The position numbers and the translations under genes were made by a program. A stretch of 33,349 nt of DNA from Megasphaera paucivorans (GTDB taxonomy: Bacteria; Bacillota; Negativicutes; Veillonellales; Megasphaeraceae), in NCBI RefSeq assembly GCF_900103535.1, contig NZ_FNHQ01000029.1:1-33349 (forward strand). Reading direction: 5' to 3'. Shown here one piece after another: positions 8,614 to 31,815 of the stretch. Numbering within the stretch: the stretch's first letter is position 1; each line of letters begins with the position of its first letter. Under the pieces are notes generated by a model. It was not told the origin of the DNA. It did not search any database and saw only the letters and a list, made by a program, of their open reading frames with translations.

Positions 8614-9039
8614 CTATATGTCATCCGTGATATGGTATATATATTTATCACTAATAATATCATCTACCAAATCAACTTCCCCATCTGTATCTATCAATGC
8701 CGCCAGTCCTTCTTCACCGGTCCGGATCCGCATAACATTCAACACCGATTCCACAAAAATCTTGCCATCACCTATATGACCTGTATAACAAGCCTTACGA
8801 GCTGCTTCCATAATTTTTCGCACGGGAACATCTCCCACTATGATTTCTACTTTTATTTTCGGCAATAAATTAAGTGAAATTTGTGTATCCCGATAAAATT
8901 CCGTATATCCTCGAGAAACACCGCATCCATACACTTGGGTTACTGTCATTCCCGGTACACGAAGCTCATCCATAGCTTCCTTTAAATCTGTAAGCTTTTC
9001 GGCACGAGTTATAATTACAACCTTCAATAATTCTTTCAT
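8614..9039 (-). CDS. P-II family nitrogen regulator with C-terminal extension
   Basis: This is a 141-residue P-II-like signalling protein. Core features are the T-loop region GYTEFYRDTQISLNLLPKIK (43-62), the B-loop TGHIGDGKIFV (86-96) and the ending MRIRTGEEG (103-111), which bind ATP/ADP and 2-oxoglutarate in the family. The residue matching the uridylylated Tyr51 of E. coli GlnB is I54, so this form should not be uridylylated there. About 29 extra residues follow the usual end, many acidic (DTDGEVDLVDDIISDKY). GGGAG lies 9 bases before the ATG. No ammonium transporter is adjacent, so its target is unknown. Confidence 0.9.
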   Translation of the reverse strand: MKELLKVVIITRAEKLTDLKEAMDELRVPGMTVTQVYGCGVSRGYTEFYRDTQISLNLLPKIKVEIIVGDVPVRKIMEAARKACYTGHIGDGKIFVESVLNVMRIRTGEEGLAALIDTDGEVDLVDDIISDKYIYHITDDI

Positions 9040-9390: not shown

Positions 9391-9447
9391 TATATCCTGT
9401 ATTTTTTTTATTATTACTAACTAATTCCAATATCATATATGTGTATA

Positions 9448-9507: not shown

Positions 9508-10869
9508 ATGAAATCAACGTGTATCGGGGCTGCATTATTTCCCCATCCCCCCATTATGCTGCCGGAAATCGGACAGAATGAGCTGGATAAAATAAAAGCT
9601 ACTGTCCAAGCTGTTTCCCATGCTTCTCAACTGATTATCGAACAACATCCTGAAACAATCATCATTATGTCACCGCATAATTATATCTTCAGTGATGGTG
9701 CCGCCATTTTTACAGAGCCTGCCCTATACGGCAACTTGGGCAAATTCGGATTTCCCGAATTATCTATGTCTCTTACCACGGATATGACACTTGCCAATGA
9801 AATTATCTATGAAACAAACAAAACCTTGCCCTTGCATCAACTTAATCAAAAAGACTGGGGTGACCGTTATGGGTATTCTATTTCCATTGATCAGGGTACC
9901 TTTGTCCCTATGTATTATTTGCAAAAAGCAGGCTTTCAAGGTTCCATCATTTTACTTTCACCTTGTTTTTATCAGTATAATATGATGACAACCCTGGGTG
10001 ATATTGTCCTGAAAGCCGCTAAAAAAATAGGCCGTCGTATTGCCGTAATTGCTTCCGGAGATTTATCACATCGCTTATTGCCGCATTCGCCTAATGGCTA
10101 TACTCCTCAAGGAGCCGTATTCGACAATACCGTTATGGACTCTTTAAAAAAACAAGATATTACGTTGCTGCGTGCTATGCCTGATTCTCTCATCGAAGAA
10201 GCCGGCATGTGCGGTCTTCCATCTGTTTATTTTTTATTTGGAATACTGCGCAGTTTTCAATCTTATATGCCGGTATATTCTTATGAAGGACCGTTTGGTG
10301 TCGGTTATGGTGTTGCCTTATACTTAAACGAAAACAGGGCTCCGCAAAAACCATCCGCAGAAAAAGATATCCGCATACAACTGGCCCGGCGAAGTATAGA
10401 ATATTACTTATCTCATCATGCTATATTATCTACGCCTTCTTCGCTTCCCGAAGAATTGACTGAAAAATCAGGTGTGTTTGTGTCTCTGAAAAAACAAGGG
10501 GAACTGCGAGGCTGTATCGGCACATATCTCCCCATACAGCTTACGGAAGCAGCCGAAATCATTCATAACGCGGTAGCCGCTGCTGTCCGTGATCCCCGCT
10601 TTTATCCTGTCGAATTAAACGAGCTGAAGGATATTACTATTTCCGTTGATGTCCTCGGCATCCCGGAAGCTATATCATCTTCCGCGCAACTTGATCCCAA
10701 AAAATATGGAGTCATCGTCATGAGTCATGCGAATACCGGACTACTGCTGCCTAATTTAGAAGGAATTGATACAGTAGAACAACAAATTACCATCGCAAAA
10801 CAAAAAGCCCATATTCCAGCAGCGGTTCGCCCTGATTTATATCGTTTTACCGTAACCCGTTATGAGTAG
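9508..10869 (+). CDS. Memo-AMMECR1 fusion (AmmeMemoRadiSam systems B and A)
   Basis: This is a 453-residue two-domain protein. Residues about 1-270 are a Memo-like domain related to class III extradiol dioxygenases (LigB fold), with FPHPPIMLPEIG, SPHNY, and IASGDLSHRL carrying candidate metal-ligand histidines. Residues about 285-453 are an AMMECR1 domain, with GVFVSLKKQGELRGCIGTY and DPRFYPV as hallmarks. The start at 9508 has a strong GGAGG; an in-frame ATG 69 bases upstream lies in the promoter. It is followed after 11 bp by the radical SAM enzyme usually found with these two domains. The family is widespread, but the reaction is not established. Confidence 0.93.
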   Translation: MKSTCIGAALFPHPPIMLPEIGQNELDKIKATVQAVSHASQLIIEQHPETIIIMSPHNYIFSDGAAIFTEPALYGNLGKFGFPELSMSLTTDMTLANEIIYETNKTLPLHQLNQKDWGDRYGYSISIDQGTFVPMYYLQKAGFQGSIILLSPCFYQYNMMTTLGDIVLKAAKKIGRRIAVIASGDLSHRLLPHSPNGYTPQGAVFDNTVMDSLKKQDITLLRAMPDSLIEEAGMCGLPSVYFLFGILRSFQSYMPVYSYEGPFGVGYGVALYLNENRAPQKPSAEKDIRIQLARRSIEYYLSHHAILSTPSSLPEELTEKSGVFVSLKKQGELRGCIGTYLPIQLTEAAEIIHNAVAAAVRDPRFYPVELNELKDITISVDVLGIPEAISSSAQLDPKKYGVIVMSHANTGLLLPNLEGIDTVEQQITIAKQKAHIPAAVRPDLYRFTVTRYE

Positions 10870-10880
10870 AGGCGTTGATC

Positions 10881-11756
10881 ATGGAAGCGCTATATTATGA
10901 AAAAAAGCCGGCCAACGCTATACACTGCATGCTTTGTCCTCATCATTGCCTTATTCCTCCCGGACATTGCGGGCGCTGCCACACACGTTACAATGATGCG
11001 GGGATACTCTTGGCATTAAACTATGGCCAGTGCACATCTATGGCTCTCGATCCCGTTGAAAAGAAACCACTGCAGCGCTTTCATCCCGGCAGTTTTATCC
11101 TATCATTGGGCTCATGGGGATGTAACTTTCATTGCTCTTTTTGTCAAAATTGGCAGATATCGCAAGACATACCGTCTTATGAAGAAATATCTCCGCAAGA
11201 TGCCGTGCGTTTAGCTATTCAACTGAAAAAACGAGGAAATATTGGTATTGCATACACCTATAATGAGCCTATCATATGGTATGAATTTCTTCGTCAGACA
11301 GCACCGCTTATCCATAAAGCCGGATTGTATAATGTTGTTGTTACAAACGGTTTTATAGAAGAAGCTCCCCTGCGAGAACTTCTCCCTTTGATAGACGCCT
11401 GGAACATTGATATAAAATCTTTTGATGAAAATTTTTATCTTCGCCGCTGCAAGGGTGCACTTTCTCCCGTTAAACGTACCATTGCATTAGCTGCCGCCGC
11501 TGCGCATGTAGAAGTAACAACACTGCTCATCCCCGGCGAGAACGATAAAATCGAAGAAATAGAAAAGACAGCGCATTGGCTCTCAAAAATTGATCCCCAA
11601 ATTCCTTTTCACTTGACACGATACTTTCCACAGTATAAAATGAGCCTTCCCGCCACACCCATTTCTACGCTGCGCAGCGGTGCGGCGGCAGCCAAAAAAT
11701 GGCTTGACTATGTATACATTGGAAATGTCCCTGATGACGATTTAGATCAAGTATAA
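10881..11756 (+). CDS. amrS: AmmeMemoRadiSam system radical SAM enzyme
   Basis: This is a 291-residue radical SAM protein. An N-terminal cysteine cluster (C16, C19, C23, C30, C33; pattern CMLCPHHC...GHCGRC) may bind a second metal centre. The SAM/[4Fe-4S] motif CxxxCxxC is C81, C85 and C88 (GCNFHCSFCQNW). The rest fits a partial TIM barrel of the pyruvate formate-lyase-activating type (YTYNEPIIWYEF, VVVTNGF, DAWNIDIKSF). I chose ATG at 10881 over an in-frame TTG at 10875 because AGAGG is 8 bases upstream. It is cotranscribed with the Memo-AMMECR1 fusion, so its substrate may be that protein or its product. No glycyl radical enzyme is nearby. Confidence 0.92.
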   Translation: MEALYYEKKPANAIHCMLCPHHCLIPPGHCGRCHTRYNDAGILLALNYGQCTSMALDPVEKKPLQRFHPGSFILSLGSWGCNFHCSFCQNWQISQDIPSYEEISPQDAVRLAIQLKKRGNIGIAYTYNEPIIWYEFLRQTAPLIHKAGLYNVVVTNGFIEEAPLRELLPLIDAWNIDIKSFDENFYLRRCKGALSPVKRTIALAAAAAHVEVTTLLIPGENDKIEEIEKTAHWLSKIDPQIPFHLTRYFPQYKMSLPATPISTLRSGAAAAKKWLDYVYIGNVPDDDLDQV

Positions 11757-11785
11757 GAAAAACAAAACTTCATTATACTAAAGTC

Positions 11786-11807
11786 GTATAATCGTTAAAC
11801 GATATAC
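11786..11807. promoter_or_regulatory. Palindromic operator-like site before the LarA-family gene
   Basis: GTAT-A-ATCGTT, a central A, then AACGAT-ATAC: a perfect 6-bp inner inverted repeat (11791-11803) extended by 4 bp on each side with one bulged base. It covers a TATAAT at 11787-11792. A second TATAAT lies at 11845-11850, so the palindrome may sit on or just upstream of the promoter. It has no following T-run, so it is not a terminator. Confidence 0.5.
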
Positions 11808-11886
11808 CGTTTTCTGTCCTCTGTAAAATCCGAATAAATAGCGTTATAATGTGTGCTAATACGTTAAAAGGAAGAGATGATGGAAA

Positions 11887-13188
11887 ATGTCTTTAAGAGA
11901 ATTTACATTTGGTATCGGAGATACCTTTCAAAAGGTATGTTTGCCGGAAGAACACATTTCCGACGTCATGGAAGGAAAAAGCGTGCCGGCCGTTGATATC
12001 AAAAAAGCCACTATCGACTGTATGCGCAATCCGATAAGCAGTGACCCTTTGCAAAAAAAAGTAACACCAGGAGATTCGGTTTGTCTTGTCGTCGCGGATT
12101 GTACCCGCATCTGGAACCAATCAAATAAATTTTTAGTATATATTATCAATGAACTAAACTTAGCCGGCATTCCCGATACAGACATCTGCATCGTATTTGC
12201 TCAAGGTTCTCATCGTGCTCATACACCGGAGGAAAATATCAAAGTTTGCGGTGAAGAAGTGTGCCGGCGTATTAAAATGTACCAGCATGACTGTAACGAT
12301 ACTACGTTGGTAGATTTGGGGAAAACAAAAATAGGTACACCGCTTTTCATTAATAAGCATGTCGTCGATGCCGATAAAGTCATCATTGTAGACGGTATTA
12401 CCGTACATTTATTTGCTGGTTACGGCGGTGGCCGCAAACTCATCCTTCCCGGAGTCTCCGGTTATAAAACTATTCAATGCAATCATTGCCACGCCTTAGC
12501 TCCCCAAATCGGCGAAGGTGTCAATCCGCTTACCCGTCCGACCTTACTAGACCATAATCCATTGAATGATGATATGATTGAAGCCTGCGCAAAAATTAAT
12601 CCTTGTTTTCTTGTCCATTCCATCATCAATGCAGAAGGTGAAATCTGCCGTATGGTCGGAGGCGACTGGTATGATGCTTGGTTAGAAGGTACAAAGGAAG
12701 TACACCGCATCCAACAGGTTCCCATGAAGCAAAAAACAGATGTCGTATTTGCCTGTGCCGGTGGATATCCAAAAGATGTAAGTTTGTATCAAGGCAGCAA
12801 ATGCTATGATCCTGCTGAAATGGCCGTCAAAGACGGCGGCATTGTAATTGCCATCATGGAAGCCCGGGATATAAAAGAACCACCTGCATACATGGACAGT
12901 TTTTGTTTTGACACAATGGAAGAGATGGAAAAAGCATTGCGTGCTGAATTTACTATTCCGTTTTTTGTCGCTTATAATTTATTCTGTCTATGTCATCGCT
13001 GTACTGTAATTCTCGTAACTCGTCCAGAAAACTTTGAAGATATACGGCGCACCGGACAAATTCCTGTCGCGACAGTAAAAGAAGCTTGGCTGCTGGCACA
13101 GAAAAAACTTGAGGAACAAAAAAAGAACGATTATACCATTAATATTATGACACATTGTACGACAGTAGTTCCTACCCTCGCACAATAA
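11887..13188 (+). CDS. larA: LarA-family nickel-dependent racemase/epimerase
   Basis: This is a 433-residue homologue of lactate racemase LarA, which uses a nickel-pincer nucleotide on a lysine to move a hydride at 2-hydroxyacid carbons. The catalytic histidines H109 (GSHRAHT) and H174 (ITVHLFAGYG) and the cofactor-binding lysine K184 (GGRKLILPG) are all present, as is a TR motif (ADCTRIW). LarB, LarC and LarE, needed to build the cofactor, are not in the window. LarA relatives act on many 2-hydroxyacids, so lactate is a guess. The start has AAGGAAGAG upstream. It follows the radical SAM gene after 130 bp and has its own promoter-like sequence; two cupin genes follow. Confidence 0.88.
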   Translation: MSLREFTFGIGDTFQKVCLPEEHISDVMEGKSVPAVDIKKATIDCMRNPISSDPLQKKVTPGDSVCLVVADCTRIWNQSNKFLVYIINELNLAGIPDTDICIVFAQGSHRAHTPEENIKVCGEEVCRRIKMYQHDCNDTTLVDLGKTKIGTPLFINKHVVDADKVIIVDGITVHLFAGYGGGRKLILPGVSGYKTIQCNHCHALAPQIGEGVNPLTRPTLLDHNPLNDDMIEACAKINPCFLVHSIINAEGEICRMVGGDWYDAWLEGTKEVHRIQQVPMKQKTDVVFACAGGYPKDVSLYQGSKCYDPAEMAVKDGGIVIAIMEARDIKEPPAYMDSFCFDTMEEMEKALRAEFTIPFFVAYNLFCLCHRCTVILVTRPENFEDIRRTGQIPVATVKEAWLLAQKKLEEQKKNDYTINIMTHCTTVVPTLAQ

Positions 13189-13269
13189 ACCCACCGATCA
13201 GCTAGTATCCTGCAATCACTATTTGTGGTAAAATAAGTATATTAAATTTTACACTGAGGAGTTGATTTC

Positions 13270-13596
13270 ATGGAAATTGTAAAGAAAGAACATTTTTTTG
13301 ACGGCGCCGGTCATGTAATCTTCAAGCATTTGCTTACAAATGAACAACTGAACGAAAAATGCCGGGTTTATGCCGAAGTAACACTGGAACCGGGTTGCGA
13401 AATCGGCTATCATGTTCACCACGGAGATGCCGAAACATTCTATATTTTATCCGGCGAGGGTGAATTTAACGATAACGGAACAGTCCGAATCATAAAAAAA
13501 GGGGATGTCACCTATACCCCATCCAATGTCGGTCATAGCTTGATCAACAAAGGATCTGCCAATCTGGTACTTATGGCTTTAATCATTTACGATTGA
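13270..13596 (+). CDS. Single-domain cupin protein, copy 1
   Basis: This is a 108-residue cupin. Motif 1 (GYHVHHGDAETFYILSGEG) supplies metal ligands H48, H50 and E55; motif 2 (GDVTYTPSNVGHSLINKG) supplies H89. All four ligand positions are kept, so it probably binds a divalent metal. Small cupins of this type may be isomerases, dioxygenases or ligand sensors, and the substrate cannot be read from sequence. GAGGAG precedes the ATG. It is a close paralogue of the next gene (same length, same ligands, same LNEKC segment at 28-31), which points to tandem duplication. Confidence 0.88.
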   Translation: MEIVKKEHFFDGAGHVIFKHLLTNEQLNEKCRVYAEVTLEPGCEIGYHVHHGDAETFYILSGEGEFNDNGTVRIIKKGDVTYTPSNVGHSLINKGSANLVLMALIIYD

Positions 13597-13628
13597 ACTA
13601 ATTCTGCATTCAATAAAAGAGGATATCT

Positions 13629-13955
13629 ATGAAAATAATACAGAAAGAACATGCTTCGGGCGGCAAAGGATATATTACAGTAAAACAGCTGCTCGATGCA
13701 AAACAGCTGAACGAAAAATGCGGTTTATATGCAGAAGTAACGATTACTCCCGGTAATTCTCTGGGCTATCATGAACATCATGGAGAAAGCGAAACCTACT
13801 ATATTCTTCAAGGAGAAGGCGTATATGATGATAATGGCATAACACGCACGGTTACCGCAGGTGATGTTACTTTTACCTCCCATGGCATGGGCCACGGAAT
13901 TGAAAACAAAGGAACGAAAGATCTTGTCTTTATGGCTTTGATAATTTTTGATTAA
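13629..13955 (+). CDS. Single-domain cupin protein, copy 2
   Basis: This is a 108-residue cupin, alignable with copy 1 without gaps. It has H48, H50 and E55 in GYHEHHGESETYYILQGEG and H89 in GDVTFTSHGMGHGIENKG. AGAGGA lies just upstream and the gap to copy 1 is 32 bp, so the two are probably cotranscribed. Substitutions cluster around the pocket (for example HVHHGDAET versus HEHHGESET), consistent with different ligands or a hetero-oligomer. A strong terminator follows. Confidence 0.88.
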   Translation: MKIIQKEHASGGKGYITVKQLLDAKQLNEKCGLYAEVTITPGNSLGYHEHHGESETYYILQGEGVYDDNGITRTVTAGDVTFTSHGMGHGIENKGTKDLVFMALIIFD

Positions 13956-13963
13956 CAGAAAAT

Positions 13964-14010
13964 AAAAACAAACAAAGACTGTCTATTTTAGACAGTCTTT
14001 GTTTGTTTTT
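13964..14010. terminator. Long perfect bidirectional terminator
   Basis: A perfect 20-bp stem (13964-13983 with 13991-14010) and a 7-nt loop, with A5 at the left end and T5 at the right end. It ends the cupin transcript on the plus strand and the trp operon on the minus strand. Confidence 0.92.
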
Positions 14011-28299: not shown

Positions 28300-31200
28300 T
28301 TATTTATCAGCTAGTTTTTTATACGCTTCCAACCGCTGTTCCATGTCTTTCGCGGTTTTGTCAAAGAACGCATCGGCAGTATCAGGGAACATCGTCTTCA
28401 GCGACGAATAGCGTACTTCGCCCATGAGGAAGTCCTTTATATTCCCTACGGGATCTTTAGAATCAAGACTGAATCCGTTCTTTCCTGCTTCTTCCTGCGT
28501 CGGATTGTAACGGTATAAATGCCAATATCCGGCATCTACTGCCTTCTTCGCTTCACGCTGTGCACAGCCCATCCCCGCTTTGATGCCGTGATTGATGCAG
28601 GGAGCATAGGCAATAACAAGAGAAGGACCCGGATACGCTTCGGCTTCCTGGATAGCTTTCAGACATTGCGCCTTATCCGCTCCCATTGCCACCTGCGCTA
28701 CATATACATATCCATAGCTCATGAATATGCGCCCGAGATCTTTCTTTTTCGTCTTTTTGCCCCCCGCCGCAAATTTAGCCACTGCTGCGGTAGGGGTCGC
28801 TTTTGAGGACTGCCCGCCCGTATTTGAATATACTTCCGTATCAAAAACAAGGACGTTGACATTGGCACCTGATGCCAAGACGTGATCCAATCCGCCATAC
28901 CCGATATCATAGGACCAGCCATCTCCGCCAAATATCCACTGGCTTCTTTTTACCAGGCAGTCACGGCGGTCATAAATCCGCTGACAGACAGGGCATTGCT
29001 CCTTAGCGGCTTCCACTACTGCGGTTACCTTATCTGCCCGTTCCCGTGTTCCTTCTGTCACCTCTTTATTATCCAGCCATTCTTGGAATACTACTTTGGC
29101 CGCTGCCGGCGTGTTTTCGTTATCAATGGCTTCCCGTACATCCATTGCCGTCTTTTCCCGCAGTTGTTCGGTCGCTAATACCATTCCTAAACCAAACTCC
29201 GCATTGTCTTCAAATAGAGAATTCGCCCAGCCCGGTCCATGTCCTTTTCGATTTTTTGTATACGGCATGGACGGTACACTCCCGGACCAAACAGAAGAAC
29301 AACCGGTAGCATTCGCTACCATCATCCGATCCCCAAACAGCTGGGTAACAAGTTTAGCATACGGTGTTTCTCCACATCCGGCACACGATCCGGAGAATTC
29401 CAGCAAGGGTTGTTCGAACTGGCTTCCTTTCACAGAAAACTTGTTCATCGGATTGTCTTTACCCGTTACTTCTTTTATGGCGTATTCCCAAAGTCCTGCC
29501 TTGCTTTCCTGCGAAGCAAGCGGCTTCATTACCAGTGCTTTTTCCTTAGCCGGGCAGACATCGGCACAACTGCCGCAGCCCAGACAATCCAGCACACTGA
29601 CGGCTATACGGAAGTTCAATCCTTTCGCACCGACAGCCGGTTTCGTTTCAAATCCCACCGGTGCCGCTTTTGTTTCTTCCTCCGTAAGCAGAACCGGACG
29701 GATCGCTGCATGCGGACAAACAAACGAGCACTGGTTGCATTGTATGCACTTATCTTTATCCCATTCCGGCACACTGATCGCCACCCCGCGTTTTTCAAAA
29801 CAAGAGGTACCTACCGGGAATGACCCATCTTCCAAGCCAATAAAGGCACTGACCGGCAGACTGTCGCCTTCCTGCTTGTTGATCGGTTCCAATATTTTTG
29901 TGATAAATTCCGGTACGGCTTCGCTTTCCTGAGAAGCCTCCGCAGCATTTTCCCAGACTGCCGGCACATTGATTTTCACGATGCCTTCTACCCCTTTATC
30001 AATCGCATCATGATTCATCTTTACCACTTTTTCGCCTTTTTTCCCATACGAAGAGACAACGGCATCTTTTAAATACAGCACCGCATCTTCAACCGGAATG
30101 ATATCCGCCAGTTTAAAGAACGCGGCCTGCATAATCATATTGATCCGTCCGCCCAAACCGACACGCTGGGCTATTCCTACGGCATCAATCGTGTAAAAAT
30201 TGATATGATTCTTGGCCAGATACCGTTTCATCGCAGCCGGCAGTTCGCGATCCAATTCTTCCGGCGTCCAAATACAGTTCAGCAAGAATGTACCGCCCTT
30301 TTTCAATCCTGCTAACACATTGTATTTATAAACATAGGATTGGTTATGGCAGGCAACAAATGCTGCTTTATCAATAAGGTATGTCGACTTAATGGGATGC
30401 TTGCCAAACCGCAGATGAGAAACGGTAATTCCGCCTGATTTTTTGGAATCATATGCAAAATAGGCTTGCGCATACATATCCGTATGGTTGCCGATAATCT
30501 TAACGGCACTTTTATTGGCTCCCACCGTTCCGTCAGAACCCAATCCCCAGAATTTACAGGCAGTCGTCCCCTCCGGTGTCGTATCGATATCTTCCCCTAT
30601 AGGAAGCGACGTGTGGGTAACATCATCTACTATCCCTAATGTGAAATGATTCTTCGGCATATCTTTTTTCAGATTTTCAAACACGGCCAATATATGACTC
30701 GGCGTGGTATCTTTGCCGCCTACACCGGCCCGGCCGCCAATGATACAAACTCCCGGCCTCTGTGCAGCAAATGCGCTCTGTACATCAAGAAACAGCGGTT
30801 CGCATAGGGCTCCCATTTCTTTGGTCCGATCAAGAACCGCTACTTTTTTCACTGTTTCCGGCATATATTTAAAGAAGTATTTCAAGGAAAACGGACGATA
30901 GAGATGAACCCGCAAAAGGCCGACCTTTTCACCGCGGGCATTCAGGTAATCTACCGTTTCTTCCGCAGCTTCTGTAAGTGACCCCATGGTAATGATGATA
31001 CGGTCTGCATCGGCGGCTCCATAATAGGTAAACGGATGATATACACGCCCGGTCAGTTCCGTGATTTGTTCCATATATTCTTCTACAATATCCGGCAGTG
31101 CTTCATAAAATCCGTTCGCCACTTCCTGCTGCTGGAAGTACACATCGGAATTTTCCAAGGACCCTTTAATGGTCGGATGATCCGGAGACGTCGCACGGTC

Positions 31201-31815
31201 ACGGAATTCCTTGATTGCCTGATGGTCCGCCAGCTTAAATAATTCATCATATTCCAGAACTTCGATTTTTTGTACTTCATGAGAAGTGCGGAACCCGTCA
31301 AAGAAATTCAGGAAAGGCACTCGTCCTTTTATCGCTGACAAATGGGCTACTGCCGACAAATCCATGGTCTGCTGTACGCTTCCTTCTGCCAGCATGGCAA
31401 AACCCGTTTGGCGGCAGGCCATCACGTCCCGCTGATCACCAAAAATACAGAGGGTATTGGTTCCCAGTGCGCGGGAGGCTACATGGAATACGCCCGGCAA
31501 TAATTCTCCGGCTATTTTATACATATTAGGAATCATCAGCAGCAATCCCTGCGAGGCCGTATACGTCGTTGTAAGTGCACCGGCCTGCAGTGACCCATGC
31601 ACAGCTCCGGCAGCTCCGCCTTCAGCCTGCATTTCCATAACACGTACCTTTTGCCCAAACATATTGGTAACTCCCTGCGTTACCCATTCATCCATATGTT
31701 CTGCCATTGCTGATGAAGGTGTAATCGGATAAATAGCTGCTACATCTGTAAATGCATATGATACATAGGCTGCTGCCGTGTTGCCGTCCATCGTCTTCAT
31801 TCTTCGTTTTCCCAT
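28300..31815 (-). CDS. nifJ: Pyruvate:ferredoxin (flavodoxin) oxidoreductase
   Basis: This is a 1171-residue single-chain PFOR that converts pyruvate and CoA to acetyl-CoA, CO2 and reduced ferredoxin, the central step of energy metabolism in anaerobes. Domains in order: pyruvate-binding N-terminal domain (DGNTAAAYVSYAFTDV, ITPSSAMAEHMDEW), domains II and III, a two-cluster ferredoxin insert with CIQCNQCSFVCP near 690 and CLGCGSCADVCP near 742, and the thiamine diphosphate domain. The last has CAGCGETPYAKL near 808 for the proximal cluster, then GDGWSYDIGYGGLDHVL and SNTGGQSSKATP. GGAGGAG lies 7 bases before the ATG. The gene is visibly more GC-rich than its neighbours, as is common for highly expressed genes. 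Confidence 0.98.
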   Translation of the reverse strand: MGKRRMKTMDGNTAAAYVSYAFTDVAAIYPITPSSAMAEHMDEWVTQGVTNMFGQKVRVMEMQAEGGAAGAVHGSLQAGALTTTYTASQGLLLMIPNMYKIAGELLPGVFHVASRALGTNTLCIFGDQRDVMACRQTGFAMLAEGSVQQTMDLSAVAHLSAIKGRVPFLNFFDGFRTSHEVQKIEVLEYDELFKLADHQAIKEFRDRATSPDHPTIKGSLENSDVYFQQQEVANGFYEALPDIVEEYMEQITELTGRVYHPFTYYGAADADRIIITMGSLTEAAEETVDYLNARGEKVGLLRVHLYRPFSLKYFFKYMPETVKKVAVLDRTKEMGALCEPLFLDVQSAFAAQRPGVCIIGGRAGVGGKDTTPSHILAVFENLKKDMPKNHFTLGIVDDVTHTSLPIGEDIDTTPEGTTACKFWGLGSDGTVGANKSAVKIIGNHTDMYAQAYFAYDSKKSGGITVSHLRFGKHPIKSTYLIDKAAFVACHNQSYVYKYNVLAGLKKGGTFLLNCIWTPEELDRELPAAMKRYLAKNHINFYTIDAVGIAQRVGLGGRINMIMQAAFFKLADIIPVEDAVLYLKDAVVSSYGKKGEKVVKMNHDAIDKGVEGIVKINVPAVWENAAEASQESEAVPEFITKILEPINKQEGDSLPVSAFIGLEDGSFPVGTSCFEKRGVAISVPEWDKDKCIQCNQCSFVCPHAAIRPVLLTEEETKAAPVGFETKPAVGAKGLNFRIAVSVLDCLGCGSCADVCPAKEKALVMKPLASQESKAGLWEYAIKEVTGKDNPMNKFSVKGSQFEQPLLEFSGSCAGCGETPYAKLVTQLFGDRMMVANATGCSSVWSGSVPSMPYTKNRKGHGPGWANSLFEDNAEFGLGMVLATEQLREKTAMDVREAIDNENTPAAAKVVFQEWLDNKEVTEGTRERADKVTAVVEAAKEQCPVCQRIYDRRDCLVKRSQWIFGGDGWSYDIGYGGLDHVLASGANVNVLVFDTEVYSNTGGQSSKATPTAAVAKFAAGGKKTKKKDLGRIFMSYGYVYVAQVAMGADKAQCLKAIQEAEAYPGPSLVIAYAPCINHGIKAGMGCAQREAKKAVDAGYWHLYRYNPTQEEAGKNGFSLDSKDPVGNIKDFLMGEVRYSSLKTMFPDTADAFFDKTAKDMEQRLEAYKKLADK

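Follow-up and report, generated by a model that had tools for sequence, protein, structure and literature searches.

A run of AmmeMemoRadiSam, LarA-family and cupin genes in Megasphaera paucivorans that probably combines neighbouring transcription units

Five genes follow one another on the + strand of a 33,349-nucleotide stretch of Megasphaera paucivorans DNA, hereafter the window: a Memo-superfamily/AMMECR1 fusion (amrAB), a radical SAM gene (amrS), a larA homologue and two cupins. A preliminary description raised the possibility that they form one pathway around a small hydroxyacid or a modified metabolite, and the question is whether the genes are partners or simply neighbours. The ORF read-out of the window placed all five, apparently intact and in the families named, at 9508–10869 (amrAB, with the longest ORF starting at 9439), 10875–11756 (amrS), 11887–13188 (larA), 13270–13596 (cupin 1) and 13629–13955 (cupin 2). 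The intergenic gaps along the run are 5, 130, 81 and 32 bp, and the gap ahead of larA is thus the 130 bp originally given. We compared the window's own genome (G000) with its family (f1), with a second family (f2) and with further families. The nearest relative of the genome is a Megasphaera metagenome-assembled genome (sister G001), whose LarA is 98% identical, and a scan of genome contigs for the locus found only three Megasphaera loci. Taken together, the analysis indicates that the run is probably not one pathway but a mosaic made up of three adjacent transcription units, amrAB–amrS, larA and the cupins. Elsewhere in the window, a P-II-like gene (8614–9039, − strand) lies between an eptA-like gene and amrAB, which among the loci compared was seen only in the window and the sister G001, and an ORF of 1171 amino acids occupies 28300–31815 on the − strand.

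Promoter-like and terminator-like signals along the run

The gap ahead of larA contains TATAAT, a −10-like element (11845–11850, + strand) accompanied by a weak −35, and TATAxT is kept at this place in 9/9 relatives. It also contains an operator-like box, CGTTAAACGATAT (11793–11805, + strand), which is kept in 6/9 relatives as CGTTAAACGAT. These elements support the separate larA promoter proposed earlier, as a prediction made from sequence reading only, and larA would have a promoter to itself, controlled by a nearby operator. The box is the only near-exact copy that a search of the own genome found. We therefore dropped the idea of a regulon for it, since there is one genome copy and the inexact matches in the window, with up to 2 mismatches, are at chance (3 versus 4.8 expected).

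In a single operon, one would expect the run to be free of conserved internal promoters and terminators; the relatives carry the TATAxT element (9/9) as well as internal hairpins. A hairpin with a T-run follows amrS in 1/9 relatives (G008) and follows larA in 4/9 (G008, G010, G011 and G013). In the window, no + strand terminator was found between amrS and larA or between larA and cupin 1, so that read-through along the run, perhaps partial, is possible. Between cupin 2 and trpA stands a long palindromic hairpin of 20 pairs (13964–14010, a feature without a strand of its own, listed on the − strand), which is likely to be a two-way terminator, its action in both directions being suggested by its symmetry. 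The part of PMC6374331 available yielded no M. elsdenii transcriptome data.

The AmrAB fusion and its radical SAM partner

AmrAB joins a LigB/Memo-superfamily domain (residues about 1–275) to AMMECR1 (about 286–453, with RGCIG at 334–338). The AMMECR1 domain scored 145 bits with PF01871 and 125 bits with TIGR04335 (cut-off 99). The N-terminal half scored 112 bits with the LigB profile PF02900, whereas it reached 19.6 bits with the Memo profile PF01875 (cut-off 27) and 20.5 bits with the Memo model TIGR04336 (cut-off 26). The Memo–AMMECR1 fusion of the preliminary description is therefore real at the level of the Memo superfamily, but its N-terminal domain scores as LigB and not as Memo. In the AlphaFold model of AmrAB (mean pLDDT 91.4, pTM 0.62, low confidence in the linker 277–285), the best fold match was TK2203 (5hee; Z 33.4, rmsd 2.8, 260 aligned), followed by aminophenol dioxygenases (Z about 27, rmsd about 3, about 260 aligned) and, lower, by MEMO1 (7kq8; Z 19.2, rmsd 3.4, 232 aligned), while the C-terminal half matched archaeal AMMECR1 proteins (1vaj; Z 22.1, rmsd 1.8, 167 aligned). 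By profile and by predicted fold, the N-terminal domain is nearer to LigB/TK2203 than to MEMO1.

The putative metal ligands show a different kinship. H13, H57 and C235, together with D185 and H188, are invariant in 19/19 aligned fusions. According to the portion of PMC11081632 available, the iron ligands of MEMO1 are H49, H81 and C244, their LigB equivalents are H12, H61 and E242, and the aminophenol dioxygenases have His-His-Glu, as stated for 3VSH. Paired by motif order and not by superposed coordinates, H13, H57 and C235 correspond to the two histidines and the cysteine of MEMO1 (PDB 7KQ8), so that the third ligand is a MEMO1-type cysteine. AmrAB would thus carry a Memo-type His-His-Cys putative metal site in a fold that is related to MEMO1 but closer to TK2203 and the aminophenol dioxygenases. 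An ordinary extradiol dioxygenase was considered and rejected, because the third ligand is cysteine in 19/19 aligned fusions and because M. elsdenii is described as strictly anaerobic (PMC10819428, in the part available).

AmrS scored 257 bits with TIGR04337 (AmmeMemoSam_rS, cut-off 220), and its runner-up families are activases of glycyl-radical enzymes (YjjW, 58 bits; PFLA, 54 bits). The CX3CX2C motif (C83, C87 and C90) is intact, and these cysteines and four N-terminal ones (C18, C21, C25 and C35) are invariant in 10/10 sequences, confirming a radical SAM partner beside the fusion. AmrS, as a PFL-activase-like radical SAM enzyme, would probably work with or on the AmrAB protein. A role in defence was discarded, since AmrS gave only weak viperin-like matches (24 bits). 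The pair resembles the AmmeMemoRadiSam system (TIGR04335/04336/04337) in that the AmrA and AmrS models are above cut-off and the partner genes are adjacent, and differs from it in that its Memo part falls below the TIGR04336 cut-off, resembles LigB/TK2203 and is fused to AMMECR1. The portions of the literature searched gave no reaction for this system.

The pair would be a standing AmmeMemoRadiSam unit. In a phylum-wide sample, amrS is present in 229/299 genomes. The fused form of AmrAB was found in 13/30 of the loci that the class search gave; of the 27 that the phylum search gave, 22 were scorable and 21 of these are fused. Reading the fusion as a hint that Memo and AMMECR1 are physically coupled, as was done earlier, is fair; since fused loci are the rule in the phylum sample, the predicted coupling is not peculiar to the present locus, where the fusion is ordinary. 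At the eptA–trp place, G006 has a lone LigB-type ORF and a cupin (L081:5199-6458) instead of the amr set, with AMMECR1 and amrS absent there; the AmrS of G004 (L080) groups with those of f24 and f5 as if acquired sideways (support 97/83 and 93/90); and a frameshift or an assembly error divides amrS of G011 (L073) into two pieces that overlap in different reading frames.

The LarA homologue and the cupins

LarA scored 604 bits with NF052525 (LarAH10, cut-off 540), which predicts a 2-hydroxyacid racemase dependent on the nickel-pincer nucleotide (NPN). H109, H174 and K184, earlier described as intact, are all present, together with R74, H200 and K305, thus providing the histidine pair, the lysine pair and the arginine of the catalytic and cofactor sites; L175, F176, S304 and F360 form the pocket. 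H108 of LarA has a role in the corresponding residue set. The roles of the other catalytic and cofactor residues were taken from the available part of PMC7583248. The window LarA is apparently competent, and as a racemase it would invert C2 of hydrophobic or medium-sized 2-hydroxyacids, making both enantiomers usable. The nickel-pincer cofactor can probably be made in the own genome, because one LarC and two LarE proteins are above cut-off there. The same genome encodes four LarA homologues. The three further ones are on G000 contigs 29, 41 and 30; one has an HPM loop and lies beside GntR-like and FAD-oxidase-like genes, and the two others have lactate-racemase-like HFF loops.

In the larA tree, which was built without the orthologues of G010 and G042 (their ORFs were hidden by a longest-first ORF filter), the window LarA falls in a clade of 16 rows from f1, f2 and f5 (support 100/100), most of which have HLF from His174 and F-F at 359–360. 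The HPM paralogues form a separate clade, in f1 beside a GntR regulator and glcD. As far as the available portions of PMC11770544 and PMC7583248 describe it, the LarAH10 of M. elsdenii racemises hydrophobic 2-hydroxyacids, epimerises mannonate/gluconate and has three methionines in its site. The window LarA shares with that protein (PMC7583248, PMC11770544 and PMC11796402, each in part) the NF052525 family, the conserved leucine after the catalytic histidine, and LarC and LarE in the own genome. The three methionines, however, fit the glcD-linked HPM...QSMK paralogue (L090) better than the HLF...FF window clade, and on these active-site residues the studied enzyme would fit better as the paralogue than as a member of the window clade. 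The portions of the literature looked at give no accession for it.

Cupin 1 and cupin 2 are mono-cupins, 55% identical to each other, and both matched the Cupin_2 profile. Their 3-His/1-Glu set (H48, H50, E55 and H89) is invariant in 12/12 aligned cupins, which bears out the earlier statement that both are complete in metal ligands, and both would be metal-binding. The nearest solved structure to cupin 2 is TM1287 (PDB 1o4t, a putative oxalate decarboxylase), likewise a mono-cupin (93.6 bits over 98 residues) with the metal ligands kept, whereas the window has two tandem copies; the part of PMC2684688 available gives a structural class for TM1287 and no function. Two copies also occur in the sister genome and in G008, and the cupin tree does not show a single simple duplication as the origin of cupin 1 and cupin 2; the third unit would hold one or two cupins. 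In G013 and G016 (L069:3926-5222 and L070:2942-4316), two ORFs on the opposite strand are inserted ahead of the cupin, and those of G013 match folE2 and an HD-domain protein.

Linkage in relatives and the competing readings

In f1, the gene set stands at one fixed place, between the eptA-like (phosphoethanolamine-transferase-like) gene and trpAB. The set is full in G000, G001, G002, G003, G008, G010, G011, G013 and G014. It is partial in G005 and G016, which lack larA, and in G006 with its LigB-only ORF and cupin, and is reduced to the cupin in G009, G012 and G015 (in G012 and G015 the trp flank was not in view). We checked the conservation of the neighbourhood across Negativicutes, as originally suggested, in genomes having both genes among the matches listed: linkage of amrS and larA within 6 kb held in f1 (9/11) and did not extend to most of f2 (1/3) or to the others (0/35). 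By the same measure, larA and the cupin are linked in 9/11 f1, 1/6 f2 and 0/7 other genomes, and amrS and the cupin in 10/12, 4/4 and 1/58, respectively. Close larA linkage is thus restricted to one family plus one f2 genome. In f2, amrAB–amrS–cupin stands in other flanks than in f1 (4/4), and larA is divergent next door in G042, 15 kb away in G025 and 179 kb away in G028; G034 gave no LarAH10-like match. Outside the f1-type place, amrB–amrA–amrS lies between cwlD and argCJBD, and argC/argJ clusters are near in 11/20 other amrS loci; no larA and one cupin were seen near these 20. In this comparison, the larA and cupin loci were chosen mostly outside the complete f1 set, and the longest-first ORF filter left no anchor ORF in 1/20 amrS, 4/32 larA and 6/20 cupin loci.

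Among 380 genomes of the class, with each gene at its own E-value limit, amrS was found in 251, the cupin in 233 and a LarAH10-like protein in 131. amrS and LarAH10 occur together in 80 genomes, amrS only in 171, LarAH10 only in 51 and neither in 78 (Fisher p 0.14). The f24 block alone has 150 genomes with amrS, none of them with LarAH10 at E<=1e-90. Within f1, the two co-occur (12 both, 1 larA only, 4 neither; p 0.002), in a count that includes the roughly 43% identical paralogue, and the remaining families show a mild co-occurrence (p 0.015, uncorrected for descent).

That AmrAB/AmrS, LarA and the cupins act in f1 on one and the same substrate, a small hydroxyacid or a modified metabolite, would suit the common strand, the short gaps, the joint presence in 9/11 f1 genomes and the window's freedom from an internal terminator. 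We nevertheless consider it very improbable and rejected it on the linkage and co-occurrence counts across the class: LarAH10 is absent from 171/251 amrS genomes, amrS and larA are close in 0/35 of the genomes listed beyond f1 and f2, the two nearest families, and the same-clade LarAH10 orthologues of f2 and f5 are mostly away from amr genes. Furthermore, larA has a predicted promoter and box of its own, the run is broken up in relatives by conserved promoter-like and terminator-like features, and the cupin persists without amr in G009, G012 and G015. The pathway reading fails because the modules occur apart, because larA has a predicted control region to itself, and because the close linkage is best explained by common descent inside a single family. 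The mosaic of three units, the reading that we favour, has against it the possible read-through in the window, the amrS–larA linkage kept in 9/11 f1 members, the f1 co-occurrence and the mild co-occurrence in the remaining families.

Of the neighbours, only the cupin shows any hint of having been drawn to amrS repeatedly. In some Negativicutes the TM1287-like cupin, and not LarA, might be a lineage-specific AmrS accessory, either a metal-binding partner or a small enzyme whose substrate is the AMR product. Differing flanks around the linked amrS–cupin genes of f1 and f2, a gap of 12 bp between amrS and the cupin in G028, and an ATGA overlap with the cupin upstream of amrS in G251 (f24) speak for such a role, which we regard as doubtful: 57/58 other genomes are unlinked, 61/233 cupin genomes lack amrS (including G006, G009, G012 and G015), the linkage in f1 and f2 may go back to one ancestral event, the G251 case comes from one fragmented genome, and no close amrS–cupin pair was seen by eye outside the class among the roughly 150 matches listed for the phylum sample. 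The overlapping pair of G251 (L174:4965-6175) has no amrAB beside it.

If the accessory role were true, the cupin would have been recruited beside amrS in three ways: behind larA in f1, immediately behind amrS in f2, and upstream with an overlap in G251. It would then offer a new route to what AmrS produces or requires. The AmrAB fusion and the cupin adjacency offer cheap constructs for pull-down and co-expression. With LarA ruled out as a likely AmrS partner, a false lead is avoided, and the amr-linked LarA clade, with its HLF...FF pocket, may represent a so far uncharacterised group of LarA-superfamily enzymes with a specificity of its own.
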